Positions 2,909 through 15,298 of a stretch of DNA of 20,422 bases are shown one piece after another. Below the pieces are notes generated by a model. It worked only from the letters and a program-made list of their open reading frames with translations, did no database searches and was not told the DNA's origin. The stretch lies in assembly GCA_001873285.1 (NCBI GenBank), contig MNYV01000128.1, positions 1 to 20,422 on the forward strand, read 5' to 3'. This stretch comes from Nitrospirae bacterium CG2_30_53_67. GTDB taxonomy: Bacteria > CG2-30-53-67. The number at the start of each line of letters is the position of its first letter. The stretch's first letter is position 1. Made by a program: the position numbers and the translations under genes.

Positions 2909-3615
2909 GTTTTCAGCAAATTGAATAGAGTGTAGTGGGGCATTCCCAAATATTTTTTCACTTGGACCATATCCGTGCATTCAAACGATGTTGGATCAAT
3001 GAGCCGGAGAACCGCTCGGTAATGGTGTGGATACAGGGGGCCCGGCGAGCTGAAGGGGAGCGGAATCCATGGATAGAGGCGACTTCGGATCCAGGTCAGA
3101 AGGTCCAGCCGCAATGAGGTGAGGACGATATTCCCTCCCGGTTTGATGATCCTCGTCATTTCCTCCAGAAAAACCGGAAGCTGCTCTTGTGGATAGAAAT
3201 TCACCATGCCCACGCAAATCGCGGCATCAAAGACTTTATCCCTGAACGGTAGGCTCTTTGCGCTTCCATTGACCCATGCCATCTTTTCGTCGGCACGGCT
3301 GTGGGCGCCCGTGGGATGCCTGCCAAAGCTCAGCATTTTGAAGGAAAGATCGAGACCCACCCAGTCCGCGCCACGGGAGACGATTTCGTTGCTGAACGCT
3401 CCGCTGCCGCACCCGATATCAAGAATCTTCATCGAAGGGCGGGGGTTCAAGAGCTTTAGGCATAGGGCCATTCTATTCCGGGTCCTCTTTGCCGCGTGTT
3501 TCTGAAAAATGGCATAGCGTGCCCTGCGTCCTGTGGGCGAGCCCGATCCATAGAGACTGTTCCAGCTCTCAACTTCGTGCTCGAAGCCCTTTTTCAAAGA
3601 TGTATTGGGGTTCAA
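2905..3615 (-). CDS. Class I SAM-dependent methyltransferase
   Basis: The 236-residue protein (from TTG 3615) is a soluble Rossmann-fold methyltransferase. Motif I is LDIGCGSGAF (65-74), the acidic end of strand 2 is in WVGLDLS (D89), SLPF marks the motif II region, and KPGGNIVLTS (158-167) matches motif III. It probably methylates a sugar or lipid-linked intermediate of this locus; the acceptor cannot be read from sequence. TTG at 3615 overlaps the upstream TGA as TTGA and is preceded at 10 bases by a strong GGGGAGG. An in-frame GTG at 3645, within the upstream gene, would add ten residues and is the alternative start. The stop overlaps the start of the fusion gene by four bases (ATGA), so translation is likely coupled in both directions along the operon. 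Confidence 0.85.
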   Translation of the reverse strand: MNPNTSLKKGFEHEVESWNSLYGSGSPTGRRARYAIFQKHAAKRTRNRMALCLKLLNPRPSMKILDIGCGSGAFSNEIVSRGADWVGLDLSFKMLSFGRHPTGAHSRADEKMAWVNGSAKSLPFRDKVFDAAICVGMVNFYPQEQLPVFLEEMTRIIKPGGNIVLTSLRLDLLTWIRSRLYPWIPLPFSSPGPLYPHHYRAVLRLIDPTSFECTDMVQVKKYLGMPHYTLFNLLKT

Positions 3616-4829
3616 ATCCGTCCAGCCTCCCCGCTGCAGGCGCACAGATATTTCCGTAACAGGTCCGCGGCTCCTTCGGCCTTTTTTTTCTCTCTGGCAA
3701 TAATAGGCGCTAATCCCTGCTTGATCTTATGCCGGTTATACCATGTGGTTTGAAGCACCTTATGGACGATCTCCTCGGAGAAATGGTCGAACTCAATCAT
3801 CCGTTCCTCCTGCTCGATGGAACACATGAATCCCCGGTTCTTGGGGGTGGCGATAATCCCGACTACCGGGGTCAGGACCGAGGAGGCTAAAATCAGAGAG
3901 TGCGTACGCATCCCTATGTGCAGATCAACCTTAGAGAGGACCAGCGCCAAATCCCGATATGAATACTCCGTGTTACTGATGATCTTGACCCGATGACCAT
4001 CCCTTGCTCTTGCCAACAACTCTTTGTTAATGGGAATATCCATGGGCTGAGTTACGACCATCAAGGGATTCACTCCGAATTCGCGGCAAGCACTCTCCAG
4101 GACACGCGCCATGATTTCCAGGAACTTGTCCCTCCCGAATCCCTTGCCTTTATAGCCTCTCATGTAAACATCAATGTAGCTGCTGATATTGAAGCTCATC
4201 CAGGGACGGGATCCGGTAAGGATCCCTTCCTTAGTCTGGATTTGGACGAGGCGGTCTTGGTCACCTGGAATCGTGTTCAGTGCGCAATCAGCCGTTTGGA
4301 AAACTCTTTCCGACGGGAATGAAGGCTGGAGCTCCTGCAATAGCGTTCTGGACTCTCTGTCTCTCAGCAGCACGATCTCCGAGCTATTGAGAACACGATT
4401 CAGGCAGGATCTTCCGATTTTCGTATAAACGGGGCCCAGACTCACGTTGTAGAGGACAACGGGGATGCCTCTTTTTTTCGCCAGGGGAAGCGCCAAGGCA
4501 AGGGTGGAAAGATAATTATAGAGAGGGTTCATCAGTTTATAATCGAACAAGATGGCGTCTGTCACCAGGATAAGATCGGCTGACAGCACCGACCGGAGAA
4601 GGGGCCAGCCGAAAATCTTGACACTCAGGTTCCATGGCATCAGACCTACCGGAGTCACATTGTATGCAGCATAGGTTTGGGCAACGAACCGGGTATTGAT
4701 CGTGGGAATCAGGAAGGTACAGCCGCTATAGCGCTTGGACAGGTCATGGAGAAGGCCGCCCAGAATGGCGGCATCTCCCGCATTTCTCCCTGAAAAATTT
4801 CCGATGATACAAATGCGATACATAGTCAT
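3612..4829 (-). CDS. Polysaccharide pyruvyl transferase family protein
   Basis: This 405-residue protein is a stand-alone member of the CsaB/WcaK pyruvyl transferase family, whose studied members move pyruvate from phosphoenolpyruvate onto sugars as a ketal. It begins directly with the family motif GNFSGRNAGDAAIL (10-23), retains D19, has SLGPVYT (130-136) in the middle, and shows the late GMRTHSLILAS motif (306-316, H310). No signal peptide or membrane helix is evident, so it should act in the cytoplasm. It is a paralogue of the C-terminal domain of the fusion protein two genes downstream: both share the GN.SG.NAG opening, a PWH/PWN segment near residue 65 of the domain, and the GPV.T motif. 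ATG 4829 and ATG 4823 are both possible starts; neither has a strong ribosome site. The upstream SDR gene ends three bases away. Donor and acceptor are not proven, and some family members have other activities. Confidence 0.87.
   Translation of the reverse strand: MTMYRICIIGNFSGRNAGDAAILGGLLHDLSKRYSGCTFLIPTINTRFVAQTYAAYNVTPVGLMPWNLSVKIFGWPLLRSVLSADLILVTDAILFDYKLMNPLYNYLSTLALALPLAKKRGIPVVLYNVSLGPVYTKIGRSCLNRVLNSSEIVLLRDRESRTLLQELQPSFPSERVFQTADCALNTIPGDQDRLVQIQTKEGILTGSRPWMSFNISSYIDVYMRGYKGKGFGRDKFLEIMARVLESACREFGVNPLMVVTQPMDIPINKELLARARDGHRVKIISNTEYSYRDLALVLSKVDLHIGMRTHSLILASSVLTPVVGIIATPKNRGFMCSIEQEERMIEFDHFSEEIVHKVLQTTWYNRHKIKQGLAPIIAREKKKAEGAADLLRKYLCACSGEAGRI
3626..3632 (-). promoter_or_regulatory. 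Strong Shine-Dalgarno that favours the TTG start of the methyltransferase
   Basis: GGGGAGG on the minus strand lies 10 bases before TTG 3615, which itself overlaps the preceding TGA. The alternative GTG at 3645 has only a weak GGA upstream, so this site supports the shorter methyltransferase. Confidence 0.55.
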
Positions 4830-4832
4830 ATC

Positions 4833-5819
4833 TCAGATGATCAGATTTTTGGCCCTATACCACTCTACCGTTCGAAGGAGCCCATCATTCAGGGAAACCC
4901 TGGGCTCATAACCCAGAATCCGGCGCGCCTTTGAAATGTCAAAGGCCCGGTCCTTGAGAAAAAAATCGAGCCGCCTCCTGAAAAGCGGAGGCTCGATCCG
5001 TAGCGCTCTGCAGATGACTTCACAAGCGACGGCCGCGGCCCAGACCGGACCGACAGGGATAGACCGAATATTGACGGACCGGCCCAGCGATTTAGCGATG
5101 GCTCGGACCAGTTCTCTCACCGTGCAGAAGGCCGGACCTGCCAGAATGAATGCCTCGCCCTCAATGCCTTCTTTCTCTCCGCACATCACGATCCCCTCCA
5201 CGAGGTCGTCTATGTAGGTGAGATGATAAAGATTCTTCCCTTTGCCGATCATGTAAAACGTCCCTTTTGATACGGGTTTGAAAAGCTTGAGAAACCGGGT
5301 GTCCCCCGGTCCGAAAATACCCGCCGGTCTGAAGACCACAACCCCCAGCCCCTTTTTGACATAGCTCAGCGCCAGCTTTTCGCCGTCCAGTTTGCTCTGC
5401 TGGTAATGATCCCCTGGGCGGAAAGGAGCAGTCTCATCCGCCGGGGGGTGTTCGATTTCACCATGCACCCCTACGGTGCTGCAGTGAACAAACCGCCTGA
5501 CATGATATCTTAATGAGGCATCCAAAAGCTTTCTCGTCCCTTCGACGTTGACATCCCAGAAATACTTTTTGGCAACGCCTTCAACTCGGAATGCAGCAGC
5601 AATGTGATAGACGACGTCCACCCCCCTGGCAGCGGCATCAATTCCGGAGCCGTTCGCAAGGTCGCCAAAAGCAATCTCACATCCGCTTTTTTCCAAATCC
5701 TCGTACCGGCTCCCTTTCCTCACCAATGCCCTCACTTCATAACCTTTTTCGAGGAGCTTTAAAGACAGGTTTCTCCCTGTAAAGCCTGTTCCGCCGGTGA
5801 CGAGAATCTTTTCAGACAT
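4833..5819 (-). CDS. NAD(P)-dependent epimerase/dehydratase (extended SDR)
   Basis: The roughly 328-residue protein is an extended short-chain dehydrogenase/reductase of the nucleotide-sugar epimerase/dehydratase or dihydroflavonol-reductase-like group. It opens with the dinucleotide-binding motif TGGTGFTG (8-15), has VVYHIAA after strand 4, CSTVGVHG carrying the catalytic Ser (about S114), and YQQSK with catalytic Tyr139 and Lys143, followed by FRPAGIFGPGD. It probably converts a nucleotide sugar or a lipid-linked sugar in the pathway; the substrate is not readable. The start is uncertain: ATG 5819 (MSEKILVTGG) matches the usual family N-terminus, while GTG 5831 would add four residues. Neither has a clear Shine-Dalgarno. 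It follows asnB after a gap of about 37 bases and precedes the pyruvyl transferase gene almost directly. Confidence 0.88.
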   Translation of the reverse strand: MSEKILVTGGTGFTGRNLSLKLLEKGYEVRALVRKGSRYEDLEKSGCEIAFGDLANGSGIDAAARGVDVVYHIAAAFRVEGVAKKYFWDVNVEGTRKLLDASLRYHVRRFVHCSTVGVHGEIEHPPADETAPFRPGDHYQQSKLDGEKLALSYVKKGLGVVVFRPAGIFGPGDTRFLKLFKPVSKGTFYMIGKGKNLYHLTYIDDLVEGIVMCGEKEGIEGEAFILAGPAFCTVRELVRAIAKSLGRSVNIRSIPVGPVWAAAVACEVICRALRIEPPLFRRRLDFFLKDRAFDISKARRILGYEPRVSLNDGLLRTVEWYRAKNLII

Positions 5820-5856
5820 AGGTGTAATCACAAGGTTTCAGGTCAGGGGTGCTGCA

Positions 5857-7740
5857 CTATGTCGCAGGCATGAACCGTTCTTTCCAGAGTTGAAACAACA
5901 TCAAAGACCAGAGCCTGTGGCTGTGGTTTTCCTCGTTCTGAATGTGCTCTTTCATTAATGTATCCACATAACCTGGATTGAAAATCCCCTGTCGTGCAAG
6001 CCTGTCGTGGGAAAGCAGGTCCGTCATCATGGGTCGGAGTGGACCTTTGAGCCAGTTTTTGATGGGGATACTGAATCCCTGCTTGGGACGATTGACAATA
6101 TTTCCGGGCAGTAAACGCCGTGCCATTCTCTTCAGGAGGTATTTTGTCTTAAAATTCCTGATCTTCAACTCCTGTGGAACGGAGAGGGCGAACTCGACCA
6201 CTCGATGATCCAGGAACGGAACCCTGACCTCCAACGACGCGGCCATACTCATTCTGTCCACCTTTACCAGGATATCGTCCACCAGGTAGGTTTTTATGTC
6301 CAGAAACATGGAGCGGTTGAGTCCGTTCAACCGGTTGCCGTTGAGATAATTCTCAATGAAGTCAAAGGTGTCATCTGTGCTGATTCCACGGCTTATTTCG
6401 GCACAAAAAACGTCGCCGTTCCGTTCAGGGTTCATGTGAATCATCCAGCGAAAGTGTTCATACCTTTCCGCATAACAGGCCCCCTCCACGAATCGTTTGA
6501 CCTTGTTGATGATCCCTTTCTTCCGGCTTGTGGGTGAAAGCATTTTCACCAGGGGTACGACAAAACGCTCTCGTGCAGCGGAGGGCATTTTGGAATAATA
6601 TCCATACACCTTCTGGGCCACATAGGTATCATACCCCCCGAACAGTTCGTCTCCGCCGTCGCCGGACAAAATCACTTTGACTTTTTCCCGGGCCATTTTT
6701 GAGACCAGATAGGTCGGGAAAACAGAGAAATCTCCGATCGGATCGTCGAGATGATCCACAATTTCCTCAATCAGTTCGATGGCAGAGGGGTTCAAGACAC
6801 GTTCGGTATGATCGGTGTCAAACCTTTCGGCGACCCGGCGGGCATAGTTCAGTTCATTGTAGCTCTGGTTTTCAAAACCTATGGAAAAGGTTCTCACCCT
6901 GCTGTCAAGAAGCTCGCTCATTAAACCCACGACCGATCCGGAATCAATCCCTCCGCTCAAGAAAGCGCCAAAAGGCACATCCGATCTGAGCCTTAGTCGA
7001 ACCGCATCCTTAAGCAACGAATAAAGCTCCTCGGCCGCCTCGTTCTCAGATCGTTTTTTCTCCTCAACCTCTTCAGGATGCCAGTAGTGGTGGAGCGTGA
7101 CACCGCCACTGTTGGCCAGCATAAAGTAACCCGGCGGCATCTTCTTTATATTGTCGAACAACGTACGCGGGAAGGGGATGAACTCGAACGTGATAAATTG
7201 CGACAACGCCTGGAGGTCCAGCTTGGCGTGAAGATCCTTTTCTTCCAGGATCGCTTTCAATTCGGAGGCGAATATCAATCTTGCCCCGTCGGTAAAATAA
7301 TAGAAGGGCTTAATACCCAGGCGGTCACGGGCGCAGAAGAGCTCCCGCTTTTCCTGATCCCAAATTGCAAACGCAAACATTCCGATCAGATGAGCAAGGC
7401 ATTCTGTGGAATACTCCTCATAGAGATGCAGGATGACCTCTGTATCGGAGTCGGTCCTGAACTGATGGCCTCTGCTCACCAATTCACTCTTCAACTCCCT
7501 GTAGTTGTAAATTTCCCCGTTAAAAACGATCTGCAGACGTCCATCCTCATTGGACATGGGCTGTTTTCCTGTTTGGAGGTCGATAATACTCAAGCGCCTC
7601 ATTCCGATTCCGATATTTTCTCCGATGTAGACGCCCATATCGTCAGGTCCACGGTGAATAATGGTTCGGCACATCCTGTCGATGATGCTCGAGTCTACAG
7701 GTTGTCCATCCAACCGCAGGTATCCCACAATGCCGCACAT
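5857..7740 (-). CDS. asnB: Asparagine synthase (glutamine-hydrolysing)-type amidotransferase
   Basis: The 627-residue protein has an N-terminal class II glutaminase domain (catalytic Cys2 in MCGIVGYL, HRGPDD 29-34, NGEIYNY 74-80, SDTEV 98-102) and a C-terminal ATP-pyrophosphatase synthetase domain (LSGGIDSGS 261-269, DDPIGDFS 332-339, SGDGGDELFGGY 359-370, then VDRMSMAASLEVRVPFLDH). All key residues are present, so it should use glutamine and ATP to amidate a carboxylate in the cytoplasm. Its length and place in a polysaccharide locus resemble the amidotransferases of exosortase-type extracellular polysaccharide clusters. It may therefore act on a sugar acid or pathway intermediate rather than free aspartate; this is inference. 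ATG 7740 is fixed by the need for Cys2 as the mature N-terminus. It lies 52 bases after the GlpD-like gene and just before the SDR gene. Confidence 0.93.
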   Translation of the reverse strand: MCGIVGYLRLDGQPVDSSIIDRMCRTIIHRGPDDMGVYIGENIGIGMRRLSIIDLQTGKQPMSNEDGRLQIVFNGEIYNYRELKSELVSRGHQFRTDSDTEVILHLYEEYSTECLAHLIGMFAFAIWDQEKRELFCARDRLGIKPFYYFTDGARLIFASELKAILEEKDLHAKLDLQALSQFITFEFIPFPRTLFDNIKKMPPGYFMLANSGGVTLHHYWHPEEVEEKKRSENEAAEELYSLLKDAVRLRLRSDVPFGAFLSGGIDSGSVVGLMSELLDSRVRTFSIGFENQSYNELNYARRVAERFDTDHTERVLNPSAIELIEEIVDHLDDPIGDFSVFPTYLVSKMAREKVKVILSGDGGDELFGGYDTYVAQKVYGYYSKMPSAARERFVVPLVKMLSPTSRKKGIINKVKRFVEGACYAERYEHFRWMIHMNPERNGDVFCAEISRGISTDDTFDFIENYLNGNRLNGLNRSMFLDIKTYLVDDILVKVDRMSMAASLEVRVPFLDHRVVEFALSVPQELKIRNFKTKYLLKRMARRLLPGNIVNRPKQGFSIPIKNWLKGPLRPMMTDLLSHDRLARQGIFNPGYVDTLMKEHIQNEENHSHRLWSLMLFQLWKERFMPAT

Positions 7741-7791
7741 AATCGCTCTGTCTTATGGCTTTGCAATAAGGAGAAGGTTCAATGATGCCTC

Positions 7792-9465
7792 TCAGTTTAG
7801 AGGAGGGTATAGGGCTTTTGTCTCTTCAATTTCTTTTTGAATTCTTCTGTCGTCCCATCGCAACTCACCCCCCATGACTTCGGCGGCAGCTCTTAATGCA
7901 GCGTCACCGGGGTTGCCGGCGGATCCCAAATCGGTACGCCGCAGAACAACATCCGACAGCTTCAGCGCCATCTCCTTTCGGACACCGTTTAGGATTTCAG
8001 CCTTGAGCACTTCCGCTGATCCAGGAACCGTTTCGCCAAGGAAGGGATCTGCTTTGGTATAACTCAGGATATCCTTGTATTTTGAGCCGTAGTTGTAGAC
8101 GAGGTGACGGGTAATCGGTTCATTGAATGCCGAGGTTCGCAAGGATTCCTTGAGGAAGTCTTCAAAGCGATCGATGTCCCCACCGTACACCGGTGTATCC
8201 TGTGTGCGGCACATGGGGGGGGTCCTGCCGAGCTTCTTTAAGACCAGGGTAATGATATTGTTTGCGACATCCCGGTGCGTCGTATATTTCACACCGACCA
8301 CGGTGATCAGGCCATCGGTCTTGTCATCATGGATATGGTCATGGATCCGGAACCTTTTCTCCAGCTTGACCTCTCCCGTTTTAACGTTCGCTCCGGCCAT
8401 GGGAAGAAGGCCTTTATGAATAAAACTGACCTCCTCTCGTTTGATGTCGGCGCTCGGGTAGGCCCGATTGACCGAGTCGAGAAAGCTTTCGACCTGCATA
8501 TTGTCCGGAAAGAAGTCATCCGGATTGCCATCGTATATCCGGTGATCCGTTCCAATGATGGTGGTGTCTCGCCAAGGAACAAAGAACAGTATCCGGTTCC
8601 CTCTGTAGACGGGTCCTCCTTCTTGTCTGTAAACGTAGGGTCCGGGAAGGCCGGCTGCGTGTGACCCCAGAAGTTTTCTCCTTACAACAATATTCATTGC
8701 CGAGGAGGGCAGGAACCTTCTCCCCGAGTTCTTTTTGGGCGCCTTCCGCAGGACCTCGTCAACCCATGGGCCGCAGGCATTGATCACGATCTTGGCTCTG
8801 ATGTCAAAAATCTCTCCCGTAAAGCAGTCCTTGGCCTGAATGCCGGCGACTTTTTGTGCATCCCCTAAAAACGCGGTACATTCAACATAATTGGCAGCGT
8901 CGGCTCCGGCATCGGCCGCAGACAATAGATAAGACAGTCCTAAGCGTTCCGTATTGTAACATTGGCAGTCATGCCATACGACTCCTCCGCTGAAATTATG
9001 AACATCATATCCAGGAACATATTCCTTCAGTTTTTCTGGGGGGATCAAACGGCCTCTCGGCAAATATTGATGAGGGTCGTTCGATTTGTTGCGATCGAAC
9101 CCGATCAGATCGTTTGCTAATGAAGCCGCCCACATGGCGAATCTGCCCTTGAGTGCATGGCCGTACGTCGGCATGACAACAGGCAAAGGATGAATCAAAT
9201 GAGGAGCAATCCTCATCAGTGCCGTACGCTCGTGAATGGATTCCCGCATCCTCCTGAAGTCCAAATGCTGCAGGTATCGGAGACCGCCATGAATGACTTT
9301 CAGGCTATTTGATGACGTGGCGTTCATAAAATCACCTTTATCAATCAAAGCAACTTTCAGGCCGCGAAGCACGGCATCCCATGCCGTACTGAGGCCGTAA
9401 ATGCCCGAACCGAGAATCACAACATCATATTCGGTGCTTGAAAGTTTGTTCAGGTCTCTTTTCAT
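7792..9465 (-). CDS. glpD: FAD-dependent glycerol-3-phosphate dehydrogenase/oxidase (GlpD-type)
   Basis: The 557-residue protein has an N-terminal FAD-binding fold with VVILGSGIYG (15-24) and IDKGDF, then ATSSNSLKVIHGGLRYL (49-65), a signature of aerobic glycerol-3-phosphate dehydrogenase. A C-terminal DAO_C-like helical domain follows VGVKYTTHRD. The family oxidises sn-glycerol-3-phosphate to dihydroxyacetone phosphate, passing electrons to quinone at the membrane or to oxygen. No glycerol uptake or kinase gene is nearby; its neighbours are asnB and a PHP-like protein inside a glycan operon, so it may make or remove a glycerol-phosphate-derived building block, or oxidise another hydroxy-acid substrate. 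ATG 9465 is chosen because AAGG (9472-9475) lies 6 bases before it; an upstream GTG at 9486 would add seven residues and has no support. Confidence 0.9.
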   Translation of the reverse strand: MKRDLNKLSSTEYDVVILGSGIYGLSTAWDAVLRGLKVALIDKGDFMNATSSNSLKVIHGGLRYLQHLDFRRMRESIHERTALMRIAPHLIHPLPVVMPTYGHALKGRFAMWAASLANDLIGFDRNKSNDPHQYLPRGRLIPPEKLKEYVPGYDVHNFSGGVVWHDCQCYNTERLGLSYLLSAADAGADAANYVECTAFLGDAQKVAGIQAKDCFTGEIFDIRAKIVINACGPWVDEVLRKAPKKNSGRRFLPSSAMNIVVRRKLLGSHAAGLPGPYVYRQEGGPVYRGNRILFFVPWRDTTIIGTDHRIYDGNPDDFFPDNMQVESFLDSVNRAYPSADIKREEVSFIHKGLLPMAGANVKTGEVKLEKRFRIHDHIHDDKTDGLITVVGVKYTTHRDVANNIITLVLKKLGRTPPMCRTQDTPVYGGDIDRFEDFLKESLRTSAFNEPITRHLVYNYGSKYKDILSYTKADPFLGETVPGSAEVLKAEILNGVRKEMALKLSDVVLRRTDLGSAGNPGDAALRAAAEVMGGELRWDDRRIQKEIEETKALYPPLN

Positions 9466-9471
9466 CGGATG

Positions 9472-9475
9472 CCTT
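9472..9475 (-). promoter_or_regulatory. Ribosome-binding site for the GlpD-type gene
   Basis: AAGG (within TAAGG) on the minus strand stands 6 bases before ATG 9465 and favours this start over the in-frame GTG at 9486. Confidence 0.45.
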
Positions 9476-9523
9476 ATAAGAAACACCCTCGGTATTCTGT
9501 ATACCGGTGCATCGGAGAAAGGG

Positions 9524-10375
9524 TCACCGTAAATTTTCGGTTGCCCGGAGTTTCTGCTGATTTTTTCTTTTCAATATTTGCATGGCCATCTGGTTTTGAA
9601 AAAAGCGAAAAGGTCTTTCAAGCTCTCCATATGAGTGTATGGGCGTTGCTGGATCTAAAAGTAGACGTTTTAATTCTTTTGCCGGCTGTTGCGGGTCAAT
9701 GGATCCTTGCAGTGAGAAGCCGAAACTGCCTGGCCGAAGGCATTCGGTTTCAAAAGGCAATGGATCGCTTCCCGGCAAGACTCGTATCCCCTTTTTCTCC
9801 GCCAGGATAAAATGAGAGGGATGGCGCCAGAATCTCGGACGCCCGCCATTATCCCCCAGGAACAGGCAGGGGTCGCCATTTTCTTCCAGGATCTTTCTCA
9901 ATATCCGCCCGCGACGTCCGAGCCATTTGCCCGCACCCCATGGAATGACCGGGATCGCGCCGGCCTCCTTGACGGTTTGAAGCGTCTCGGCAAGGGGTTC
10001 CCCCGATTTCAAGCCGTCTTCGGCGCCCAAGGCCAAAACTTCGAGGTTTTCGGCTGTCACGATCTGACGCCCCGCTATCAGGAAAATACCTTGTTTGCCG
10101 TTATGCCTTCCTAAAATCGAAATGTTTTCTTTTGTCCGATGGAAGGTCCAGCTCCGAACTGGATCTCTCTTTTGCCTCTGCCCGCCTTCAACCAGACGAG
10201 CGATGCGTTGAAAGCCGTTTTCCCTTTTGCCTTCCGTGAAGAACAAAACGGCCATGAACTTGCTATGACATCCAAGTTTCTCTGCTGCGGTCTGGAAATT
10301 CGAGAGCGCGGAATCAAGAAAGACCGTCAGGTCAAAGCAATCATAGAAATGAACGTGGGCATCGACTAATATCAT
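9524..10375 (-). CDS. PHP-like putative metal-dependent hydrolase, function unknown
   Basis: The 283-residue protein opens with VDAHVHFY (H7, H9), the HxH motif of PHP and amidohydrolase-type metal sites. Later segments can be lined up with the PHP core: AENLEVLALG (about 108-117), VIPWGAGKW (about 142-150) where PHP enzymes usually have a histidine after the proline, GDNGGRPRFW, and LPGSDPLPFE near residue 205, where PHP enzymes have GSD followed by a metal-binding histidine. Two expected histidines therefore seem replaced (W in one motif, P/L in the other), so this may be a variant or inactive site. There is no signal peptide or membrane helix. ATG 10375 is the only reasonable start, but its ribosome site is poor and the upstream stretch is AT-rich. 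It sits between a GT4 gene and the GlpD-type gene (58 bases before it). I do not recognise a named family, so the role is unknown. Confidence 0.7.
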   Translation of the reverse strand: MILVDAHVHFYDCFDLTVFLDSALSNFQTAAEKLGCHSKFMAVLFFTEGKRENGFQRIARLVEGGQRQKRDPVRSWTFHRTKENISILGRHNGKQGIFLIAGRQIVTAENLEVLALGAEDGLKSGEPLAETLQTVKEAGAIPVIPWGAGKWLGRRGRILRKILEENGDPCLFLGDNGGRPRFWRHPSHFILAEKKGIRVLPGSDPLPFETECLRPGSFGFSLQGSIDPQQPAKELKRLLLDPATPIHSYGELERPFRFFQNQMAMQILKRKNQQKLRATENLR

Positions 10376-10437
10376 TTAAAAACTGTTTCAACGGGACGCG
10401 ATCCAGGTTGACATTTCACGCGCCCATGGGAAAGGCT

Positions 10438-11604
10438 TTATGTTTTAACCCTTCCGATGACCCTCTCCAGCCTCTGCTTATATATTTCTTCACCATATTT
10501 ATTACTATAACATTCATAGGCGTTCGTTGCTCGCCTTCTGGCTTCTTCTTCGTTTTCGAGACATTCAAGAATACCTCCGGCAAAATCATGCGGATTAGGA
10601 TCTCGCAAGAAGGCACATTCCCCGTCAAGCTCCTGGGTATGGGTCCTGAGGCTCGTGGCGACAATCGGCACACGGCTCGCCATGTACTCGTAAATTTTAA
10701 GCGGGGTGTTCGTTCCCTTCAGCCTGGGAGATACCAGCACGTCAGCCTCTTTAATAAATTCCCTTACAGGGTTTACGTCAAGTCGGCCCGTAAACAGAAC
10801 ATGGTCAGAGATCCCGAGTTCTTCCGCCTTCCTGCGCATTTCAAGGACCTGTTCTGAAGTCCCCCCTAAAAAGATAAAGACGAGATCTTTCCTTTCTCTT
10901 AATACGATTCCAATGCTTTCCAAATACATCTCCAAACCCTGGTAGGGCTCGAAGGTACCCGCATATAAAACAACCTTTTTCCCGGCCGTATTGATAAGAT
11001 TCTTTAGATTTGCATTGTAAGGGCTGTTTTTGAATGCAATCGGGGAGAACAATGTGTTTTGAATCAGCTCATTCTTGCCGGCAAACCCAAATTTCTCTAC
11101 CTGCAGTTCGAGTTCCTTGCAGATCGTAATGATGGCGCTCGCTCTGGCGATGGAAAGCCTTTCCAGATATTCAAAAATACTGATGAGCGGTTTAAGTTTC
11201 GCAAAATTGAAATTTTCCAACTGTTGCGGAAGGCTTGAATGCATATCATAGATGTACCTGGTGCCGAAAATTCGATTTAATAGCAGACAAAAAAAGACGG
11301 CCTCTTCGTGTGCATGAACAATTTCATACTTGTTTCTATGAAGCAGAAGCAGCGCTTTCAAAAAGAGAGGAATATCCAACATTAGTTTCACGATCGACGG
11401 GCCGATTCTGATGTCGTAAACAAAAGGAAGCCGTGGACTCCTGATAATGTTCACCCGCTCTATGTCAACATCCTCACCGATCGGATAAGTCAGCAGATCT
11501 ATCTCATGACCTAAATCCGAAAGAGCTTTTGCCCGGTAGTATACACTCAGGGGTGTTCCCCGAGGAGTAAAAAAAGGCTGAGGCACAATCATCAAGATCT
11601 TCAT
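10438..11604 (-). CDS. Glycosyltransferase family 4 (GT-B fold)
   Basis: The 388-residue protein is a cytoplasmic GT-B glycosyltransferase. The N-terminal acceptor domain starts MKILMIVPQPFFTPRGTP, the usual GT4 opening with a glycine-rich loop, and has HAHEE at 98-102. The C-terminal donor domain starts at VVLYAGTFEPYQGLE (211-225) and carries GRLD, EADVLVSPRLKGTNTPLKI and YEYMASRVPIVA, the region that holds the nucleotide-sugar-binding glutamates of GT4. It should transfer a sugar from a nucleotide donor to a growing, probably lipid-linked, glycan; sugar and linkage are unknown. It begins two bases after the stop of the degenerate GT2, with GAG 5 bases before ATG 11604, so the three glycosyltransferase genes are probably co-translated. 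Confidence 0.92.
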   Translation of the reverse strand: MKILMIVPQPFFTPRGTPLSVYYRAKALSDLGHEIDLLTYPIGEDVDIERVNIIRSPRLPFVYDIRIGPSIVKLMLDIPLFLKALLLLHRNKYEIVHAHEEAVFFCLLLNRIFGTRYIYDMHSSLPQQLENFNFAKLKPLISIFEYLERLSIARASAIITICKELELQVEKFGFAGKNELIQNTLFSPIAFKNSPYNANLKNLINTAGKKVVLYAGTFEPYQGLEMYLESIGIVLRERKDLVFIFLGGTSEQVLEMRRKAEELGISDHVLFTGRLDVNPVREFIKEADVLVSPRLKGTNTPLKIYEYMASRVPIVATSLRTHTQELDGECAFLRDPNPHDFAGGILECLENEEEARRRATNAYECYSNKYGEEIYKQRLERVIGRVKT

Positions 11605-11606
11605 GT

Positions 11607-12596
11607 TTACTCTATCATCTCTTTCACGTTAAAGTGTTTCCCTTTTTTGCTGTGGGTATAAATGATAATCTCTCCTATAAAGCCGATCGCAAAGATCTGG
11701 ATCCCGATGACGATAAGAAGGGAGGCCAGGAAGAGTGAAGGCTTGTCTCGAAGTGCAAAGCCTTGTGTAAAAAGGCGGTTGTATATGAGAAAGGCATTGA
11801 TGGCGCCGCCAAAAAGGATGAGAATGGAACCGATGAGCCCGAAGAATCTCATGGGTCTGTATGTAAAACGTAGAAGGAAGAAAAGAGTGACAATATCAAT
11901 CAGCCTGTACAGGTATGTAGATATCTTATAGACCCTTAAGCATGTGTCCTCCTTCCTTTGCTTGACGACTAACTCTTTGACCCGAAGGCCTTGGTGCTCC
12001 GCCAGAATCGGGATAAATCGGTGAAGGTCTCCGTACACATCAAAGGCTTCAGCTACCTCTCGCCTCATCGCCCTTAAGCCGCAGGAGATATCCCCGAATT
12101 TTGTTCCCGTAAAAAACCTCAGAATTTTATGGAACAGGAAGGTCTGAACCCTGTTAAAGAACGCGTCGTTCTCTCTCGATCTCCGGCATATCACCATGTC
12201 ACATTCGTTGTTGTTTAATGCATCGTAGAGCCTTTTTGTCTCCTCCGGTTCAACCTGCAAATAGGAAGAAAGAGTGAAAACATACCGACCTTTGGCATTC
12301 TGAAAACCTACGGAAAGCGCATTCGATTCACCGAAGGTTCTGGGGAATATTATTAACTGTATGTTTGGGTTCTTACGGGAAAGTTGTCTGATCTCGTCAT
12401 AGGCATTTTTCATGCGGGCATCAATAATAAATATAAACTCAAAACTTTTTTTTATCTTTGATAGTTCCTCATAATACAGGAGAAAGAGCCTCTCAAGGTT
12501 ATCGCTTCTTTCAACGACTGGAACGATCACCGATATTTCAGTATCCTGCTTCACGATCCCTTCAGATCCCACAGCGATTTTCACTTCTGTATCCAT
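11607..12596 (-). CDS. Degenerate GT2 glycosyltransferase with C-terminal membrane helices (probable pseudoenzyme)
   Basis: The 329-residue protein is clearly a paralogue of the next gene upstream: ISVIVPV, GRYVFTL, DISCGLRAMRREV (169-181), LHRFIPILAE (191-200) and two C-terminal membrane helices (about 250-275 and 288-312) match. However, the catalytic motifs are lost. The nucleotide-binding DDGSTDGT becomes IDARMKNA (58-65), the metal-binding DGD becomes SSY (110-112, in LSSYLQVEP), and the GKSKYG loop becomes EDTCLRVYK. The frame is long, intact and has a strong ribosome site, so this is not simple decay. It may be a regulatory or scaffold partner of the active GT2, a lipid-binding subunit, or an enzyme with changed chemistry. 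It overlaps the upstream gene by 16 bases and is followed after two bases by the GT4 gene. Confidence 0.85.
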   Translation of the reverse strand: MDTEVKIAVGSEGIVKQDTEISVIVPVVERSDNLERLFLLYYEELSKIKKSFEFIFIIDARMKNAYDEIRQLSRKNPNIQLIIFPRTFGESNALSVGFQNAKGRYVFTLSSYLQVEPEETKRLYDALNNNECDMVICRRSRENDAFFNRVQTFLFHKILRFFTGTKFGDISCGLRAMRREVAEAFDVYGDLHRFIPILAEHQGLRVKELVVKQRKEDTCLRVYKISTYLYRLIDIVTLFFLLRFTYRPMRFFGLIGSILILFGGAINAFLIYNRLFTQGFALRDKPSLFLASLLIVIGIQIFAIGFIGEIIIYTHSKKGKHFNVKEMIE

Positions 12597-13522
12597 GATA
12601 CGTCTCCTAATATCTTGTTCTGCTTATAGTCTCCGGTTTTAATAACCAACTCCATGAGGTAACCGAATGACACGAGGCTGAAAGCCAGGAAAATGAAAAG
12701 GATGCCGGACCCCAGAGTGACGATGGCGTGATCCGGAACCAGCGATGGATTCAAGAAATCATAATAATAAAATCCCAGGAAGGTCGTGCCTAAAAACCAG
12801 AAGGGAATGCTGGACAGCCCAAACAAGGTCATCGGCTTGGAGGAAAAATCCACAAGTAATTTGATCTTGATAAGATCAAGCAGCACCTTCCATGTCCTTG
12901 AGAGTCCGTATTTGCTCTTCCCGGCGACACGGGGCTTGTGTGATACAGGGACTTCTGTAATACGTGACCCGATGGACGCGGCAACAATGGGAATAAACCT
13001 GTGCATCTCAGAGTACAGATGGATATGTTTTATAATATCCCGCCTGTATCCCTTCAGCGAGCACCCAAGATCCCGGATCTTCACCTTGGTCACATAAGCG
13101 ATCAGGGCGTTGGCCAGCGCCGAGGGTATTCTCCGCAGGAAAAGGTTATCCTTTCTTATCTGCCGCCAACCGCAGACAACGTGGTACCCGGACCGGACCG
13201 CCATGAGGATACGAATGATATCTGCGGGGTCATTTTGCAGATCCCCATCCATGGTCACGAGAACCTCCCCCCGGGCTGCTTCAAAGCCGGCAGCCATGGC
13301 TTCGCTTTGCCCGTAGTTCCTGTTGAAGATGATCACTTTGAGCTCAGGAGCGGCCTTCTTGATTTCTTTTATGGCTTCCGTGGTGCCGTCGGTTGAGCCG
13401 TCATCCACGAAGATGACCTCATAGGTCAGAGAGAGTTTCTGAAGCTCTCTCTTTATTCTCCGATAAAGTTCGTCCACGTTTTCTTTTTCGTTATATAAAG
13501 GAACGATAACGGACAGATCCAT
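12581..13522 (-). CDS. GT2 polyprenyl-phosphate glycosyltransferase, GtrB/DPM1/ArnC-like
   Basis: The 313-residue protein has an intact cytoplasmic GT2 domain: SVIVPLYNEKENV at the start, VDDGSTDGT (39-47) for nucleotide binding, TMDGDLQNDP (90-99) with the DxD metal site, DLGCSLKGYRRDI (151-163), HRFIPIV, and AGKSKYGLSR (200-209). Two C-terminal membrane helices (about 232-255 and 266-293) follow. This layout matches enzymes that transfer a sugar from a nucleotide donor to polyprenyl phosphate at the inner membrane (GtrB, ArnC). ATG 13522 is preferred over GTG 13525 because AAAGG lies about 8 bases upstream. It overlaps the degenerate paralogue gene, suggesting that both proteins are made together. 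Confidence 0.92.
   Translation of the reverse strand: MDLSVIVPLYNEKENVDELYRRIKRELQKLSLTYEVIFVDDGSTDGTTEAIKEIKKAAPELKVIIFNRNYGQSEAMAAGFEAARGEVLVTMDGDLQNDPADIIRILMAVRSGYHVVCGWRQIRKDNLFLRRIPSALANALIAYVTKVKIRDLGCSLKGYRRDIIKHIHLYSEMHRFIPIVAASIGSRITEVPVSHKPRVAGKSKYGLSRTWKVLLDLIKIKLLVDFSSKPMTLFGLSSIPFWFLGTTFLGFYYYDFLNPSLVPDHAIVTLGSGILFIFLAFSLVSFGYLMELVIKTGDYKQNKILGDVSWIQK
12604..12608 (-). promoter_or_regulatory. Strong ribosome-binding site inside the upstream GT2 gene
   Basis: AGGAG on the minus strand lies 7 bases before ATG 12596 and inside the coding sequence of the intact GT2. It supports active, coupled translation of the degenerate GT2. Confidence 0.55.
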
Positions 13523-13600
13523 CACGGCCGCCTTTCCCAGAAAAATATTTTGATACGAACACCCTTCACTCTTTAGATCCCCTTTGGCTCTGAATAAGCC

Positions 13601-15298
13601 TTATTTATTCTTCCTGAAAGATTCCCTAAGTATGCTGATCTTATCATCAGCAGGCGTGTAAAAATTCGGCAAGGTCTTTAAAGGGACCCGTATTTCCGAG
13701 CCGATGATGGGCAATCTGATATGAATGTCTTCACGCGTCTCTGGAATATCTCCATTCATCCTGTAGATCAAAATCATTTTATTCTTGTTCGCACTGTCTT
13801 CATTATATAACTTTATTTTTTTCTCCAGTGTAAAATGATCGGATTCCAACGCCTGCCTCAGCATCTTATAGGCATTGATATTAAAGTCCGATTCCTCTTC
13901 GATCACAAAATACCTGGTCCCGTACGCCTCTAAGAGTTTATAGGTATCATCCATGTTTTTCGCGTACTCGACCAGCAGATACTTTGAAAACACGGAAGAC
14001 GAAGCAAGGAGCTTGTCCCCGCGGAAGATAATCATTCTTCTTTCCTTGTCCAATTTCCTGATGTAGAAAACAAAATTGCCGTTTCCTAATCCGCTCCCTT
14101 GGAAGAAAACCCTTGGTTCACCCTTGTCCACGATATATCGGGCCGCTTCTTCATAACCTTGAACCAGGGGGATCCTGGTCTGAATGGCCAAGACGAATTG
14201 ATAGACGCACAACATCATGAGTAACAAGGGCGCAACAGGTATTTTCTTTATCTTCCAGGAAATTTCATTGAGTATGAGCGCTGCAAAAAGGGCGTAGGGA
14301 GGGAGCCAGAAATAGATATACCTTGAATCCTTGACTCTAAGATAACTGAACGTAAGGTAAAACCCGAAAATCCAGGCAATGAAAAGAACCGCCGCCTTAT
14401 AGTCTTTTCTTATAAAAATAAGAAAAATTGAAAGAAGGCAAAGCATCATCGTGGGGATGGTAAACGCCTCGGACAGGGCCCTCGGGTAAAAAAGCCATGG
14501 TTTTAAAAAGAGCAGACGGGACTGAGCGGAGATGCCTCCGATGGATTGGGCGATATTCATTTGACCGTATCGCAATGTCAGGAATACCAAAGGAGAAATG
14601 AGGAGGAACAGACTGAGACTGAGAAGAATCACATCCTTGCTCATCATCCTTTTATAATTCTTCGTCAAAATGAAATAGAGGAAAAATGTGAGAAGGATGA
14701 AAATGGATGTCTGCTTGGTGTAGACGGATGCAGAGACCGAGAGAACCGTATAGAAACCATATCTCGGCTTGTCGCGTTCAATAAAGTTATAAAAAAGATA
14801 GACGGAAAGGATGATCATCGCGAGAGACGGCATTTCCAGCATGGCGCTTTTTGCCCACTTCACGATGAAGGGCGTTGTGATAAACAGAATGCTGGAGTAA
14901 AGAGCGATTTTTTCATTGAAGATTTGCCTGATGAGCTTGAACCAGAACGTTACGGCGATCAAAGCGAAGAAGAGGACCGTGAGCCTTGCGCTGACCACAG
15001 AGACGCCGAATAAGGCAAAAAATCCCGCCTCCACAAGGGCAAAGAGCGGCGGGTAGTAACCGATGCTCAATGCCGGGTATTTTGTATAATACTGGGCTAT
15101 GTAGTCCACAAAATGGAGGATGGGAAAGTCCCTGATGAAATCCAATATGAAAACACCGTCCATCGCGTGCCGGGGCGCGTCCGAAAACCAGAACTCTCCG
15201 CGGTGAATGTCTTTGACCAAAATAATAATTGTCACCGCAATCACGAAACTCAGATAATACGGGGATCGGTTTTCCTGGAAATCTTTTCGTAGTTTCAT
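13601..15298 (-). CDS. Integral membrane glycosyltransferase, GT39/ArnT (PMT_2)-like
   Basis: The 565-residue protein is a polytopic GT-C glycosyltransferase. A first helix (about 14-28) is followed by the periplasmic loop WFSDAPRHAMDG (37-48) with the acidic residues (D40, D47) expected in the catalytic loop of ArnT/PMT enzymes, then GYYPPLF, a run of about ten hydrophobic helices up to about residue 380, and a C-terminal soluble domain of about 180 residues. The family uses a polyprenyl-phosphate-linked sugar as donor and works on the periplasmic side of the inner membrane. The gene directly upstream is a DPM1-type synthase that could supply its donor, and an intact GtrB-like enzyme lies just downstream. 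The acceptor (lipid, glycan or protein) is unknown. ATG 15298 lies 14 bases after the upstream stop and has no strong ribosome site. Confidence 0.87.
   Translation of the reverse strand: MKLRKDFQENRSPYYLSFVIAVTIIILVKDIHRGEFWFSDAPRHAMDGVFILDFIRDFPILHFVDYIAQYYTKYPALSIGYYPPLFALVEAGFFALFGVSVVSARLTVLFFALIAVTFWFKLIRQIFNEKIALYSSILFITTPFIVKWAKSAMLEMPSLAMIILSVYLFYNFIERDKPRYGFYTVLSVSASVYTKQTSIFILLTFFLYFILTKNYKRMMSKDVILLSLSLFLLISPLVFLTLRYGQMNIAQSIGGISAQSRLLFLKPWLFYPRALSEAFTIPTMMLCLLSIFLIFIRKDYKAAVLFIAWIFGFYLTFSYLRVKDSRYIYFWLPPYALFAALILNEISWKIKKIPVAPLLLMMLCVYQFVLAIQTRIPLVQGYEEAARYIVDKGEPRVFFQGSGLGNGNFVFYIRKLDKERRMIIFRGDKLLASSSVFSKYLLVEYAKNMDDTYKLLEAYGTRYFVIEEESDFNINAYKMLRQALESDHFTLEKKIKLYNEDSANKNKMILIYRMNGDIPETREDIHIRLPIIGSEIRVPLKTLPNFYTPADDKISILRESFRKNK

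Follow-up and report, generated by a model that had tools for sequence, protein, structure and literature searches.

A family 2 glycosyltransferase look-alike: a probable functional membrane partner without catalysis, not a gene in decay

Why should a glycosyltransferase gene keep a well-preserved reading frame when its catalytic motifs have been replaced? This question is raised by two adjacent genes on the − strand of contig MNYV01000128.1 from Nitrospirae bacterium CG2_30_53_67, positions 1 to 20,422 of which constitute the stretch analysed here (the window). Both gene products match PF00535. The upstream gene encodes an intact polyprenyl-phosphate glycosyltransferase of family GT2 (hereafter the active GT2), and the downstream one a protein of the same fold with altered motifs (the look-alike). 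The pair and its surroundings are as follows.

10438 to 11604, − strand: GT4 glycosyltransferase gene, 2 bp downstream of the look-alike gene, 33% identical to a gene of a sister-phylum cluster (L132; the sister phylum is defined below)
11607 to 12596, − strand: look-alike, a GT2-fold pseudoenzyme of 329 aa and candidate non-catalytic partner
12581 to 13522, − strand: active GT2, 313 aa from the ATG at 13522, with DDGS, DGDLQ and RVAGKSKYG
12604 to 12608, − strand: AGGAG ribosome-binding site of the look-alike gene, 7 bases before its ATG and within the active GT2 gene
13601 to 15298, − strand: GT-C of the PMT_2 family, upstream neighbour of the pair and likely user of the lipid-linked sugar

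An alternative GTG start at 13525 would extend the active GT2 to 314 aa (ORF 12581-13525). Its 3' end overlaps the start of the look-alike gene by 16 bp and, with the AGGAG sequence, this points to translational coupling of the look-alike to the active GT2 in the window; the intact frame and the ribosome-binding site that the initial annotation had read from the sequence are indeed present. The two proteins share 27% identity over 301 aa (E 4e-42).

We then considered the fold. An AF2 model of the look-alike, built from a 42-row alignment, reached a pLDDT of 86 and contained a GT-A domain, juxtamembrane helices and two C-terminal transmembrane helices (helices at residues 225-244, 248-276 and 285-318, of which the last two are the transmembrane ones), in agreement with the fold landmarks and paired C-terminal helices first noticed by eye in both proteins. 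By sequence as well as by fold the best solved relatives were ArnC and GtrB, followed by DPMS, with 9b77, 9bhe and 9nyf as the best PDB matches and a Foldseek E value of 1.4e-20 against ArnC. This indicates a full-length polyprenyl-phosphate glycosyltransferase fold from which no domain is missing, and the look-alike is thus a full-length member of the DPMS/GtrB/ArnC group of GT2 proteins. It scored 122.5 bits against the ArnC equivalog of NCBIfam, below the cut-off of 529, and no dedicated NCBIfam family was found for it.

The catalytic positions that distinguish the two proteins are listed below.

12414 to 12425, − strand: IDAR at codons 58-61, where DDGS would stand; D59 is retained and the loss is private to the window
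12261 to 12269, − strand: SSY at codons 110-112, where the metal-binding DxD would stand, from the alignment with orthologues
12180 to 12182, − strand: R139, equivalent of the acceptor-phosphate residue R122 of GtrB (role from PMC4728340), Arg in 36 of 36 members
11928 to 11951, − strand: former A-loop, codons 216-223, EDTCLRVY, with Glu at the position of GtrB R200 (role from PMC4728340 and PMC5526996)

In the alignment, VDDGSTDGT of the active GT2 becomes IIDARMKNA in the look-alike (DDGSTD against IDARMK), DGD becomes SSY (DGDLQ against SSYLQ), and AGKSKYG becomes TCLRVYK (RVAGKSKYG against EDTCLRVYK). The initial annotation had described all catalytic motifs as lost and the GKSKYG loop as gone. 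The three substitutions are as it described them; however, D59 is the second Asp of the DD pair, equivalent to the nucleotide base contact D43 of GtrB, and has been kept, and the A-loop has lost its motif by substitution and not by deletion, TCLRVYK standing in its place.

In order to place these changes, we aligned in depth 36 members of the look-alike family, namely the window protein and 35 orthologues from the sister phylum. Both Asp residues of DxD (D94 and D96 in GtrB) were absent from all 36. The first position was T, S, A or N in the 35 sister-phylum members, and the second was Arg in 33 of them and Tyr in the window. The A-loop Arg (R200 of GtrB, R202 of PfDPMS) was replaced by Gly in 35/35 sister-phylum members and by Glu in the window, and the equivalent of GtrB K132 was lost throughout (36/36), being Asn in the 35. 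A new A-loop pattern, G-x-F-R, was conserved among the sister-phylum members, 28 of the 35 having Arg at the former Gly. DDGS, in contrast, was retained in 34 of 35 (DDAS and DDNS forms counted as kept), so that the window protein, which also lacks the equivalent of GtrB R125, has gone beyond the losses common to the family. Conservation of the three substitutions across genomes, as first envisaged, thus holds for DxD and the A-loop Arg, which are fixed losses, but not for DDxS. Homologues still bearing the ordinary motifs, which would have pointed to simple decay, were found only as regards DDxS, since DxD was present in 0/35. In PfDPMS the metal is held by the second DxD Asp together with a Gln two residues on, and the alpha-phosphate is bound by the A-loop residue R202 (PMC5526996); in GtrB, mutation of R122, R125, K132, R200 and others abolishes activity, and R122 binds the acceptor phosphate (PMC4728340). 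The family-wide loss of DxD, the A-loop Arg and the K132 equivalent means that donor chemistry as it is known would be lost in the whole family. The alignment shows that the equivalents of the residues for the metal and the donor diphosphate have disappeared, while the predicted acceptor-phosphate Arg has been kept.

Among 60 relatives examined, the best match of the look-alike was not an intact GT2 but a protein of the unrelated genome G052, in which FTSR replaces MDGD, the A-loop is lost, and the gene lies directly downstream of an intact GT2. A two-member profile made from these sequences gave strong matches throughout the phylum of G052, here called the sister phylum. With a 19-member profile and a threshold of E<1e-120 (the window protein itself scores 1e-124), orthologues with intact frames were found in 72 of 82 sister-phylum genomes. 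No orthologue was found outside the sister phylum and the window in about 300 genomes taken domain-wide, where the best other score was 7e-94, and the 26 non-orthologous matches inspected (7e-94 or worse) all had an intact DxD. Of the 8 genomes of the window's own phylum, G000 alone carries either of the two genes, and orthologues of both are absent from the seven others. A scan for close relatives returned only a near-clone, L036, labelled Deltaproteobacteria bacterium CG_2015-17_54_20, and a tblastn search of PLSDB for plasmid-borne relatives gave only GT2 proteins of less than 60% identity.

The expectation that the pair stays adjacent was borne out: the active GT2 was directly upstream of the look-alike in 51 of 56 fetched genomes, representing 21 families, and in the five exceptions the contig ended (G109, G118, G121), the active gene was split (G101) or two small ORFs lay between the genes (G122). 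Ten genomes had no full look-alike gene; eight of these also lacked the active orthologue, and in the other two the active gene was at a contig end. In G066 the contig breaks off after 139 codons of a look-alike gene that follows the active gene, and an apparent gap in pairing in G070 is likewise a contig end. In the sister phylum, neither gene was found without the other on any contig with sequence on both sides. Linkage within the cluster explains part of this constancy, since adjacency and joint loss are also expected from linkage alone. A mirror-tree comparison of the two proteins gave a distance correlation of 0.65, which we set aside because the control set was badly assigned.

How did the two genes come together? 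In the tree, the window look-alike and its 35 orthologues formed one clade (SH-aLRT 99), and the active GT2 of the window and its counterparts formed a separate one (SH-aLRT 97). When the catalytic columns were removed, the supports of the two clades were 99/97 and 100/98, and both window genes remained sisters of their sister-phylum counterparts, meaning that the pair was inherited together. The look-alike family adjoins FGK/LQDDP-type enzymes, and the active partner lies among FGQ/LQNDP-type enzymes. Since these are different GT2 subclades, the pair was brought together and not made by tandem duplication; the genes, first described as coupled paralogues, are therefore not recent duplicates. 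A recent tandem duplication was rejected, as the two genes cluster separately, each beside its orthologues from another phylum, with or without the catalytic columns. The position of the window copies as sisters of all sister-phylum copies points to an old transfer or an unsampled source. For the neighbouring genes (3612-13525), too, the sister-phylum clusters contain homologues, several of them 44-56% identical, and these homologues (up to 56%), together with the absence of pair orthologues from the seven other genomes of the window's own phylum, hint at transfer of the whole cassette.

The cassette at 3612-13525 comprises genes for a pyruvyl transferase, an epimerase, an AsnB-like protein, a GlpD-like protein, an unknown protein, the GT4, the look-alike and the active GT2. 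The AsnB-type amidotransferase (5857-7740) is closest to the XrtA/PEP-CTERM amidotransferase model, at 630.6 bits for a cut-off of 816.9. The unknown protein (9524-10375) has 283 aa, begins MILVDAHVHFYD, has no Pfam match and has a 44% identical homologue at L132:9091-9939; it looks like an undescribed metal-hydrolase-like family. At 749-2980, an LPG_synthase_TM (flippase-like) domain and a domain of the polysaccharide pyruvyl transferase type form one fusion protein; the fusion partner of LPG_synthase_TM in G052 is a hexapeptide-repeat transferase (L037:5428-7188). Directly downstream of the look-alike, where the window has the GT4, 50 of the 56 genomes have a third GT2, whose motif reads TDADNQY or TDGDNQY (L037:13716-14660). 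A membrane protein of the YdjM family (PF04307; L037:11183-11716) is encoded upstream of the active gene in about 30 sister-phylum clusters, but not in the window.

We looked at where selection acts. Between close sister-phylum genomes the look-alike gene showed a dN/dS of 0.09-0.22, about the same as the active gene, and it is thus under purifying selection in that phylum. Mean pairwise identities were then calculated by region for the two proteins over the same 32 genomes, using the membrane features below.

11769 to 11855, − strand: transmembrane helix 1 (TM1) of the look-alike, codons 248-276, from the AF2 model, conserved above that of the active partner
11643 to 11744, − strand: transmembrane helix 2 (TM2), codons 285-318, from the AF2 model, containing the most conserved part of the look-alike family
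11610 to 11663, − strand: C-terminal tail, codons 312-329, conserved in the look-alike family and variable in its active relatives

The GT-A domain was less conserved in the look-alike than in the active GT2 (compare 47% with 64%), whereas TM1 (62% against 31%), TM2 (82% against 48%) and the tail (68% against 31%) were more conserved, the look-alike being above the active protein in 493-496 of 496 pairs for these three regions. Active enzymes of the look-alike's own subclade gave 55% for GT-A, 43% for TM1, 61% for TM2 and 20% for the tail. Conservation is thus inverted with respect to the active partner, with a relaxed GT-A domain and strong constraint on the membrane helices and a tail of about 18 residues. 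As judged from these sequence comparisons, function appears to have shifted out of the catalytic domain and into the membrane part and C-terminal tail.

Could the gene nevertheless be decaying in the window's lineage, in a family that is functional elsewhere? The private loss of DDGS could then be a sign of relaxed constraint; the window look-alike keeps 39 of 71 near-invariant family columns (compare 74 of 88 for the active partner), and its sole close copy, L036, is 99.99% identical and too close for dN/dS. Yet all 329 codons are open behind a start and a ribosome-binding site, whereas neutral evolution to 60% identity produced a stop codon in 200 of 200 simulated runs; its branch, 1.97 when the catalytic columns are left out, does not exceed that of the active GT2 (2.24); and TM2 is still 55% identical to the sister-phylum orthologues, against 28% for GT-A. 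We thus regard decay in this lineage as very unlikely, and simple decay in general is disfavoured by the sister-phylum dN/dS, the simulated stops and the branch length. That selection keeps the protein, as the initial annotation had supposed, is supported by this dN/dS and by the intact, consistently substituted family. A further possibility is that the sister-phylum protein is a metal-independent glycosyltransferase, in which Arg at the second DxD position replaces the charge of the metal and the A-loop Arg has moved three residues on. Basic residues that replace the metal are known in GT-A enzymes. The Arg at these two positions (33/35 and 28/35) and the kept DDGS (34/35) would fit, so that a degree of nucleotide binding or catalysis of an unusual kind may persist, and PfDPMS D89A and D91A retain some residual activity (PMC5526996). 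On the other hand, the equivalents of R200 and K132, each essential in GtrB, are lost in every member, and GT-A is the less conserved half of the protein, the opposite of what an enzyme would show. We find this activity improbable in the sister phylum; in the window, where Tyr stands for Arg and DDGS is lost, it is also unlikely in its own right.

The look-alike might also act alone as a lipid-handling membrane protein (flippase-like, lipid-presenting or a sensor) and not as a subunit of the active GT2. Its conserved part is indeed the membrane helices and the tail, the acceptor-phosphate Arg is kept, and among the neighbouring genes examined no GtrA-type flippase was recognised. Against this, the gene is strictly paired with one and the same GT2 in 21 families, two transmembrane helices are few for a flippase, and the LPG_synthase_TM protein of the cluster is a better flippase candidate; we hold such a role to be unlikely. 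The reading that we prefer, at slightly better than an even chance, is that the look-alike is catalytically dead and serves the intact GT2 encoded upstream as an obligate membrane subunit that does no catalysis. A scaffolding, regulatory or lipid-supplying role, as proposed at the outset, is plausible and would fit the inverted conservation. GtrB is a homotetramer with a shared membrane bundle (PMC4728340), so that mixed oligomers can readily be envisaged. The membrane helices and C-terminal tail of the look-alike would mediate its assembly with the active GT2; the look-alike would take the place of some protomers in a tetramer such as GtrB forms as a homo-oligomer, and would help to bind or present polyprenyl phosphate or fix the architecture of the complex. 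Only the active GT2 would transfer sugar to the lipid, and the lipid-linked sugar would then serve surface-polysaccharide synthesis by the cluster. A point against the subunit reading is that the active GT2 alone has everything that a polyprenyl-phosphate glycosyltransferase needs.

Pseudoenzyme partners of glycosyltransferases are already known. In the streptococcal Gtf1-Gtf2 (GtfA-GtfB) system the partner is non-catalytic, and the proteins are soluble, of GT-B type and glycosylate protein. There, as would be the case here, two genes give a two-protein glycosyltransferase complex (PMC5207161). In human DPM1-DPM2-DPM3, a DPMS catalytic subunit is accompanied by separate non-catalytic membrane subunits (PMC5526996); however, DPM2 and DPM3 have 80-90 aa and no GT domain, whereas both window proteins have GT-A and transmembrane helices. 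EXT1-EXT2 is a complex of homologous glycosyltransferases with one inactive GT domain, the pseudo-GlcA-T of EXT2 (PMC9675754), but it is eukaryotic, EXT2 has a second, active domain, and the complex is a polymerase and not a lipid-phosphate enzyme. GtrB, ArnC and DPMS share with the look-alike full-length homology, a GT-A domain with amphipathic and two transmembrane helices, and the acceptor-phosphate Arg; they differ in that its family lacks DxD, the A-loop Arg and the K132 equivalent and is conserved in the membrane part. ValL and VldE have another fold. With these "pseudoglycosyltransferases" the look-alike, of GT-A/ArnC type, would have only the name in common, and the term, proposed in the initial annotation, is a poor label because the literature applies it to ValL and VldE, which catalyse non-glycosidic couplings. 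In a limited search of open papers, no described case of an inactive subunit was found among polyprenyl-phosphate GT2 enzymes.

Taken together, these data make it probable that the look-alike functions in the membrane as a partner without catalytic activity. More tentatively, and at somewhat less than an even chance, it would belong to a polyprenyl-phosphate glycosyltransferase that is obligately heteromeric throughout a phylum and of which one protomer lineage is permanently non-catalytic, has a membrane-embedded lipid-presenting or architectural role, and was passed with a polysaccharide cassette to or from another phylum. The annotation "glycosyltransferase family 2" is misleading for this whole family in one phylum. 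Polyprenyl-phosphate GT2 enzymes start extracytoplasmic glycosylation routes, and the route by which the lipid phosphate gets to their active site, 15 Å away from the membrane, is still an open question (PMC4728340). A natural variant without the donor chemistry, in which the membrane half has been kept and hardened, would offer a direct handle on this access.
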